A stretch of DNA of 12,253 nt from a bacterium. Lineage in GTDB: Bacteria; AUK180. The stretch covers positions 1 through 12,253 of the forward strand of contig JAUXGM010000064.1 in NCBI GenBank assembly GCA_030622125.1, written 5' to 3'. The position numbers were made by a program, and so were the translations under genes. The notes under the pieces are model-generated. The model did no database searches. It saw only the letters and a program-made list of their open reading frames with translations, and was not told the DNA's origin. This document shows positions 119 through 1,068 of this stretch, one piece after another; the stretch's first letter is position 1; the number at the start of each line of letters is the position of its first letter.

Positions 119-147
119 TTGACAAAATCTAATTTTTTGTTTATAAT
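119..147 (+). promoter_or_regulatory. Consensus promoter of the hairpin RNA and AbiF-family gene
   Basis: TTGACA at 119-124 and TATAAT at 142-147 are both perfect and exactly 17 bases apart. The start point should fall around 153-155, directly before the hairpin at 156-197. The main product is therefore expected to be a short RNA, with the protein gene reached only by transcripts that pass the hairpin and T-run. Confidence 0.85.
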
Positions 148-153
148 TATACA

Positions 154-204
154 ACATACCCATCACGCCTCTCAACGATGCGCAATTTGATGGGTATTTT
201 TTTT
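154..204 (+). ncRNA. AbiF-associated structured RNA (abiF-motif-like), also an intrinsic terminator
   Basis: A perfect 10-bp stem (156-165 with 188-197) encloses a 22-base loop, in which CGC 166-168 can pair with GCG 180-182 to leave a C-rich apical loop at 169-179. A run of eight T (197-204) follows. With the consensus promoter at 119-147 this predicts a transcript of about 50 nt ending at the T-run, immediately before the ATG at 205. A conserved RNA upstream of abiF genes is described (the 'abiF RNA motif'), and AbiF has been reported as a toxin with an RNA antitoxin. I match this one by position, architecture and remembered loop sequence, not by a covariance-model search. A simple attenuator for the downstream gene is the main alternative, and it could be both. 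Confidence 0.75.
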
Positions 205-1068
205 ATGAAATATAATAAGCCTGCGAAATCATTACCGAAACAAATCCAATTATTAAGAGAACGAGATTTATTAATTACTAATGAAGATTTTACAATAAAT
301 ATATTAAAAAATGTGAATTATTATAGAATAAGTGCTTACTTTTCCCCTTTTCAAAAGATTAAAGATAAATTTATCCCCGACACTACTTTTGATAATATTT
401 TTAATCTGTATAAATTTGATAGGAATTTAAGAATATTGTTTTTTGACTTTTTAGAAATTATTGAGATTTCAATTAGAACAAAAGTTGCATATTATCTTGC
501 AAATAAATATGATAAATTCGGATATATAAGAAAAGATATATATAACCAATTTTTTAAATATGAAGAATGGTTTAGTAAACTTGAAATTAATATTAAGAAA
601 TCCCAAGAAATTTTTGTAAAACATTATAAAACAAAATATACCAAAGAAAAATATTTACCAATATGGATGATGGTTGAAATAATATCTTTTGGCAGTCTTT
701 CAGTATTTTATAATCATTTGAAAAATGCTGATAAACAAAAAATATCAAGGGATAATTATGGAGTTGATAAAAAAATTTTATCTTCATGGTTACATTCGTT
801 AGTATATATTAGAAATTTATGTGCACACCATAGCCGTTTATGGAATAGAATTCTTTCCATATCCCCAAAGAAACCAAAAAAAGAGGATATCTGGAAAAAT
901 TTTCCGGGAAATAAAATATTCACAATTCTTTTAATTTTTAAAAGGTTGTCCCCTGATCAAAATTACTGGAATCATTGGAAAAATAAACTTTATATTTTAA
1001 TTAACAAATATAAAGAAGTAAAAATAGAATCAATGGGATTTCCTGAGAATTGGAAAAAAATATTATAA
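205..1068 (+). CDS. AbiF/AbiD (Abi_2) family HEPN protein, probable RNase toxin
   Basis: This 287-residue protein belongs to the Abi_2 family of abortive-infection proteins. The N-terminal part has the family pattern (an inner stretch with NYYRISAY, then LYKFDRNLR and IEISIRTKVAYYL). The HEPN catalytic motif is RNLCAHHSRLWNR, with R203-X4-H208 when counted from the ATG at 205. The C-terminus has the family-typical MGFPENW. HEPN proteins of this kind act as dimeric RNases in phage defence or toxin-antitoxin modules. An in-frame ATG at 178 lies in the loop of the upstream hairpin RNA and would add nine residues coded by that RNA, so I prefer 205. No Shine-Dalgarno is present, because eight T directly precede the ATG. 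The gene is more AT-rich than glyQ (13 and 10 G/C per 60 at 301-360 and 541-600, versus 28 and 21 at 1741-1800 and 2281-2340), which suggests transfer. Confidence 0.88.
   Translation: MKYNKPAKSLPKQIQLLRERDLLITNEDFTINILKNVNYYRISAYFSPFQKIKDKFIPDTTFDNIFNLYKFDRNLRILFFDFLEIIEISIRTKVAYYLANKYDKFGYIRKDIYNQFFKYEEWFSKLEINIKKSQEIFVKHYKTKYTKEKYLPIWMMVEIISFGSLSVFYNHLKNADKQKISRDNYGVDKKILSSWLHSLVYIRNLCAHHSRLWNRILSISPKKPKKEDIWKNFPGNKIFTILLIFKRLSPDQNYWNHWKNKLYILINKYKEVKIESMGFPENWKKIL

Follow-up and report, generated by a model that had tools for sequence, protein, structure and literature searches.

The window analysed here is a stretch of 12,253 nucleotides, positions 1–12,253 of contig JAUXGM010000064.1 (GenBank assembly GCA_030622125.1; GTDB lineage Bacteria, AUK180), and its first 1.07 kb hold, head to tail on the forward strand, a promoter, a hairpin RNA of the abiF family, a run of eight T residues (T8) and an abiF gene that starts with the ATG at 205; this unit, and the RNAs resembling its hairpin that occur in phages, are the subject of this study. 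The promoter is of the sigma-70 type (TTGACA-N17-TATAAT, 119–147), appears to serve both the RNA and the gene, and is the only exact match to this sequence in the window, where 0.02 would be expected. A probable antitoxin RNA with a T8 end follows at 153–204. It scores 75.8 bits with R1, a covariance model that we built from eight abiF RNAs and that contains the window sequence itself. Specifically, the core at 159–195 matches the Rfam family abiF (RF03085) in cmscan with 48.4 bits against a gathering cut-off of 37 (E 1.3e-6) and shows covariation across eight relatives, and the hairpin at 156–197 has a folding energy of −17.2 kcal/mol (z −4.7). The T8 run at 197–204 separates RNA and gene and is likely an intrinsic terminator or attenuator, with a T-rich tail kept among relatives. 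The locus has a single copy of the RNA, without a repeat array in 1–2400. An earlier note on this DNA had described a perfect promoter and a hairpin RNA closed by a T-run, and had proposed the Rfam covariance-model search; the two consensus hexamers with their 17-base spacer, the RF03085 match with T8, and a score above the gathering threshold bear it out on each count. It had also held that all boundaries of the unit can be read directly. This applies to the start codon, which is backed by homologues, but not to the 5′ end of the RNA, for which the position of the promoter suggests a transcription start at about 154.

The abiF gene (205–1068, forward strand) encodes a 287-residue Abi_2 / AbiD-F HEPN protein. 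Its product matches Pfam Abi_2 (PF07751) with 191.4 bits against a cut-off of 25.6 (E 2e-56), is called AbiD by PADLOC (E 1.5e-88) and is related to PDB entry 8vz6 (E 8e-40, 29% identity), in which the AbiF protein PbAbiF is bound to its non-coding RNA (ncRNA); a search of NCBIfam gave no match. The AlphaFold model (predicted local distance difference test, pLDDT, 90) matches 8vz6 over the full length, with template-modelling (TM) scores of 0.90/0.87 and Z 26.4, so that the fold comparison, like the sequence matches, agrees with the HEPN Abi protein that had been predicted. In particular, the HEPN catalytic motif R-N-L-C-A-H (811–828), with R203 and H208 as the R-X4-H pair, occurs once per chain, and both residues are invariant in the 11 and the 21 homologues of two alignments (A1 and A2). 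A distant homologue in Ignavibacterium was the only match of a contig scan.

The start codon directly abuts the T8 run. The open frame extends further upstream into the RNA and includes the ATGs at 178 and 190, both of them unlikely starts of AbiF. The AUG in the loop (178) was rejected as the start, being out of frame in all three close relatives (L004, L005 and L006), and homologues start at the position corresponding to 205, in line with the claim that the protein begins right after the RNA. Because there is no ribosome-binding site and the start lies directly after the T-run, translation of AbiF from this leader is probably low, which would further favour the antitoxin RNA. This start next to the T-run, lacking a ribosome-binding site, is the one oddity of the unit, although the missing site is less distinctive in view of glyQ and other genes of the window, which likewise have none.

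The phylum of the window comprises seven genomes, its own included. In four of the seven, the window and three relatives, an abiF gene has its adjacent cognate RNA directly upstream behind one promoter, as read from sequence; neither an abiF gene nor an abiF RNA was found in the other three. The three other AbiF proteins are 59, 58 and 44% identical to that of the window, and the promoter preceding their RNAs (L004, L005 and L006) has the same layout. Kept among these relatives are the promoter, the sequence AACATA (or AACACA) 5′ of the stem and the T-rich tail. RNA and start codon are 9 bases apart in the window, against 17–45 in the relatives. In one relative (G005:C254, loci L006/L069), two complete promoter–abiF RNA–T-run units stand in tandem upstream of one abiF gene. 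Across the eight abiF RNAs, all nine pairs are formed in each sequence (72/72 cells) and three pairs are changed on both sides; the number of paired cells and the covariation score are both higher than in any of 500 shuffles or any slid register. The loop and the 3′ bulge are strongly conserved. The hairpin that had been expected before close homologues is present in the three closest ones, with the same promoter layout and with compensatory stem changes.

Beyond the phylum, 49 Abi_2 loci on plasmids, phages and viral contigs were compared with R1, and 29 of them have a match immediately before the gene; three of the 29 had gone into building R1. By comparison, only three of the 20 plasmid and phage Abi_2 loci pass the Rfam cut-off, and those three had built R1. 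No abiF RNA was found with R1 upstream of the prophage Abi_2 genes L057–L065. An IMG/VR search with the AbiF alignment as query yielded 28 loci; a search with a single AbiF protein gave no match. Additionally, at mostly proteobacterial Abi_2 genes (L018, L014, L026, L031 and L040–L043) the terminal loop of the RNA carries an extra hairpin (CCTCGGACGGAAC..GGTTTCG). The plasmid RNAs with this extra loop hairpin score below the Rfam gathering cut-off, and Rfam therefore undercounts the abiF RNA family.

Taken together, these findings make it very probable that the window unit is an AbiF toxin–antitoxin or abortive-infection system of a type III-like kind; it is a system of an already described sort, preceded by RCd22-AbiF of Clostridioides difficile and by PbAbiF. 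By analogy with these, the promoter would mostly yield an RNA of about 50 nucleotides ending at the T8 run, and occasional read-through would give the abiF messenger RNA (mRNA). The HEPN protein would dimerise to form a ribonuclease (RNase) site with R203/H208, and one RNA per monomer would hold it inactive by blocking that site. Once the ratio of RNA to toxin falls, for example upon phage takeover, AbiF would cut RNA and growth would stop. On these grounds we infer that, in the window copy, the RNA acts as an antitoxin, the protein as an RNase and the T-run as the site of termination. Two features weigh against such a unit: the match to the anti-Shine–Dalgarno sequence at ATG205 is not above background, and the single abiF motif of the window, with its stem running straight into the T-run, contrasts with the two motifs and the separate terminator of RCd22.

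Three other explanations of the locus were weighed. The hairpin might be a mere transcription attenuator or 5′ untranslated regulator of abiF rather than a protein-binding antitoxin, as the hairpin and T8 immediately precede the start codon and deletion of RCd22 in C. difficile raises abiF mRNA 17-fold (PMC12373285). However, the loop and the 3′ bulge are conserved well beyond what attenuation needs, abiF RNAs exist without any AbiF gene downstream, and the C. difficile RNA binds AbiF and works when supplied in trans (PMC12373285), which together make this explanation improbable. Slightly less credit still goes to a decayed remnant at the contig edge: the low GC content (0.23) and the lack of a Shine–Dalgarno match would fit it, but the frame of 287 residues is intact with all invariant residues, the promoter is perfect and the stem shows a compensatory change. 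An RNA-guided, Cas13-like effector with the abiF RNA as its guide can practically be dismissed, for against one weak match of the AbiF model to EsCas13d (Z 7.5) stand the single HEPN motif per chain, the lack of a repeat array in 1–2400 and an invariant loop where a guide would vary; the Cas13 matches in the fold search were weak throughout (Z 5.6–7.5) and were not used as proof.

The setting of the unit fits a mobile defence gene. With a GC content of 0.23 against 0.32–0.38 in the next five genes, abiF is more AT-rich than its neighbours, as had been observed. The transfer that the earlier note drew from this composition is weakly supported by AT content itself and gains from the different chromosomal site of abiF in relatives. 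The glyQ–DUF4388–kinase block located 3′ of abiF is conserved in five relatives, where abiF is not next to it, and in two of the genomes (G002 and G004) abiF is placed elsewhere, after one common gene. The site in G004 also encodes a subunit of a GmrSD-type endonuclease together with a Vsr endonuclease and a C5-cytosine methylase and is, judged by gene content, a small defence island. The shifted site, these defence neighbours and the low GC content are the basis of the mobile-gene reading. In the window, a gene for a small RNA-binding protein of the RNA recognition motif (RRM) type adjoins abiF (1218–1454); such a gene was not seen around glyQ in any of the five relatives compared.

The orphan abiF RNAs of phages are a more interesting result than the window unit, which is ordinary in kind. 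In the R1 search of the phylum, where each genome with an Abi_2 gene has one, two more strong RNAs lie away from it. One, with 46 bits, is an orphan in a prophage (G002:C14, L074 2713–2764, minus strand), flanked by a gene for an SU10-type major capsid protein and by a small open reading frame followed by an SU10-type adaptor gene; the same genome has its chromosomal AbiF unit elsewhere. The other (G005:C277, L075 1740–1792, minus strand) is served by a promoter of its own, and the gene immediately after it is of the Fic family, not Abi_2. In IMG/VR, the RNA-core pattern CACGCCTCTYARCRATGCG occurs in at least 120 stretches versus one for the reversed pattern of the same composition, and a second RNA pattern occurs in 79. 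Among the 186 loci read, Abi_2 is adjacent to 11 RNAs, and 160 RNAs with at least five of six outer-stem pairs have no Abi_2 within the fetched stretch. None of 46 orphan-bearing viral records searched whole (15–175 kb), which may be fragments, contains Abi_2. The outer stem, which except for one base falls outside the first pattern, is perfectly Watson–Crick in 102 of 132 first-pattern cores among the matches listed, whereas redealing the 3′ arms gives 19.6 on average and 29 at most; these shuffles ignore relatedness, and 47 different 5′ arms occur. Among the same listed matches, two positions of the 3′ bulge are conserved as A (121/132) and C (115/132). A fixed partner gene beside the orphans was rejected, since they share no neighbour (104 upstream clusters among 144). 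A count of open reading frames overlapping the orphans was discarded, because the gene caller retains long antisense frames in GC-rich contigs, and an alignment chosen by eye (A4) was likewise kept out of the evidence.

Isolate phages carry similar RNAs, including the Bacillus Nitunavirus phages SBSphiJ, Grass and phiNIT1, Bacillus phage P59, Lactobacillus phage P1, the Aeromonas T7-like phage PZL-Ah8, Salicola phage CGphi29, Rhizobium phage Pasto, Synechococcus phage S-CREM1, and Streptococcus and Enterococcus phages. The RNAs of PZL-Ah8, CGphi29 and S-CREM1 score above the Rfam cut-off, R1 supports those of SBSphiJ, Grass, P1, P59 and Javan132, and the dArtagnan RNA is supported weakly (E 0.0015). 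The inner stem of the isolate RNAs changes on both sides, from CGC/GCG to UGC/GCA or CAC/GUG, and no Abi_2 was found in nine complete isolate-phage records searched whole (0/9).

Many orphans sit inside phage transfer RNA (tRNA) clusters or in operons of structural genes. Among the matches listed, 15 of 132 non-redundant IMG/VR orphans have a tRNA gene no more than 100 bases away, all 15 being on the strand of the tRNA, whereas random positions in the same stretches give 3.1 on average and at most 8 in 1000 trials. In particular, the P59 RNA (L272 2501–2535) is flanked by tRNA-Asp and tRNA-Pro within a 15-tRNA array, the P1 RNA abuts tRNA-Gly, and the S-CREM1 RNA stands between tRNA-Asn and tRNA-Gly. 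At least seven T residues among the 11 bases after the stem are present in 6/16 RNAs beside tRNAs versus 42/83 elsewhere, a small difference. P59 was isolated on Cytobacillus oceanisediminis, and this species has a plasmid-borne AbiF with its cognate RNA (L029); the P59 RNA and this plasmid AbiF are a candidate natural pair.

RNA mimicry is the simplest reading of the orphan abiF RNAs. During infection a tRNA array or structural operon of the phage would supply the RNA in trans; the RNA would bind the host AbiF and keep the RNase silent as host transcription falls, and abortive infection would fail. Phage phiTE offers a precedent, since it suppresses ToxIN by means of pseudo-ToxI repeats (PMC3475682). 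Because many orphans sit inside tRNA clusters, our guess is that AbiF acts at least partly on tRNAs. Phage tRNAs are reported to evade tRNA-cutting defences (PMC10264068, PMC11555353), and a phage may supply both the AbiF inhibitor and replacement tRNAs. We lean slightly towards the combined proposal, in which orphan phage RNAs are antitoxin mimics that silence host AbiF and AbiF may partly target tRNAs. Alternatively, the orphans might be structural hairpins of phage transcripts, such as a terminator or processing site, although a simple terminator would hardly account for the conservation of loop and bulge; they might also serve superinfection exclusion or have a partner other than Abi_2. 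Orphans span phages without an AbiF gene from T7-like phages to Herelleviridae. If they silence AbiF, mimicry of RNA antitoxins would be a common phage counter-defence beyond the single ToxIN case; the placement of orphans in tRNA arrays hints at where the natural target of AbiF may be sought.

Several known systems resemble the unit and its orphan relatives. The tandem-repeat antitoxin of the classical type III toxin–antitoxin systems ToxIN, CptIN and TenpIN is not found in the window, nor are the two HEPN motifs per chain and the repeat–spacer array of Cas13 and type VI CRISPR. ToxIN is similar in that RNA antitoxin and RNase toxin share one transcript and phages carry antitoxin-like RNA; its antitoxin is a tandem repeat array, whereas that of the window is one hairpin, and its toxin has the ToxN fold, in contrast to the HEPN fold of AbiF. 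The orphans find their counterpart in the abiF small RNA (sRNA) of cyanophage S-CREM1, which likewise lies within a tRNA cluster of a phage without an AbiF gene. In the searchable literature, a scope outside which Weinberg et al. 2017 and the Cell 2025 study fall, this single sRNA is the only earlier orphan report found, given with no mechanism proposed (PMC9964418).

The PbAbiF–AbiFr ribonucleoprotein (PDB 8vz6), reportedly from Zilberzwige-Tal et al., Cell 2025, shares with the window unit the full-length fold, the R-X4-H motif and a cognate ncRNA; PbAbiF comes from a different lineage, and the ribonucleoprotein of the window unit is predicted by likeness. According to the description available in PMC12737573, PbAbiF binds one AbiFr per monomer. 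In C. difficile, the AbiF protein is toxic and needs R202/H207, and RCd22 RNA binds it directly and so neutralises it, both in cis and in trans (PMC12373285). RCd22-AbiF has the same order of one promoter, abiF motif RNA and Abi_2 gene; it differs in having a ribosome-binding site, while in the window the T-run stands next to the ATG. To these systems the window contributes, from a phylum that has been sparsely sampled, a compact AbiF unit whose promoter is perfect and whose RNA is one hairpin.
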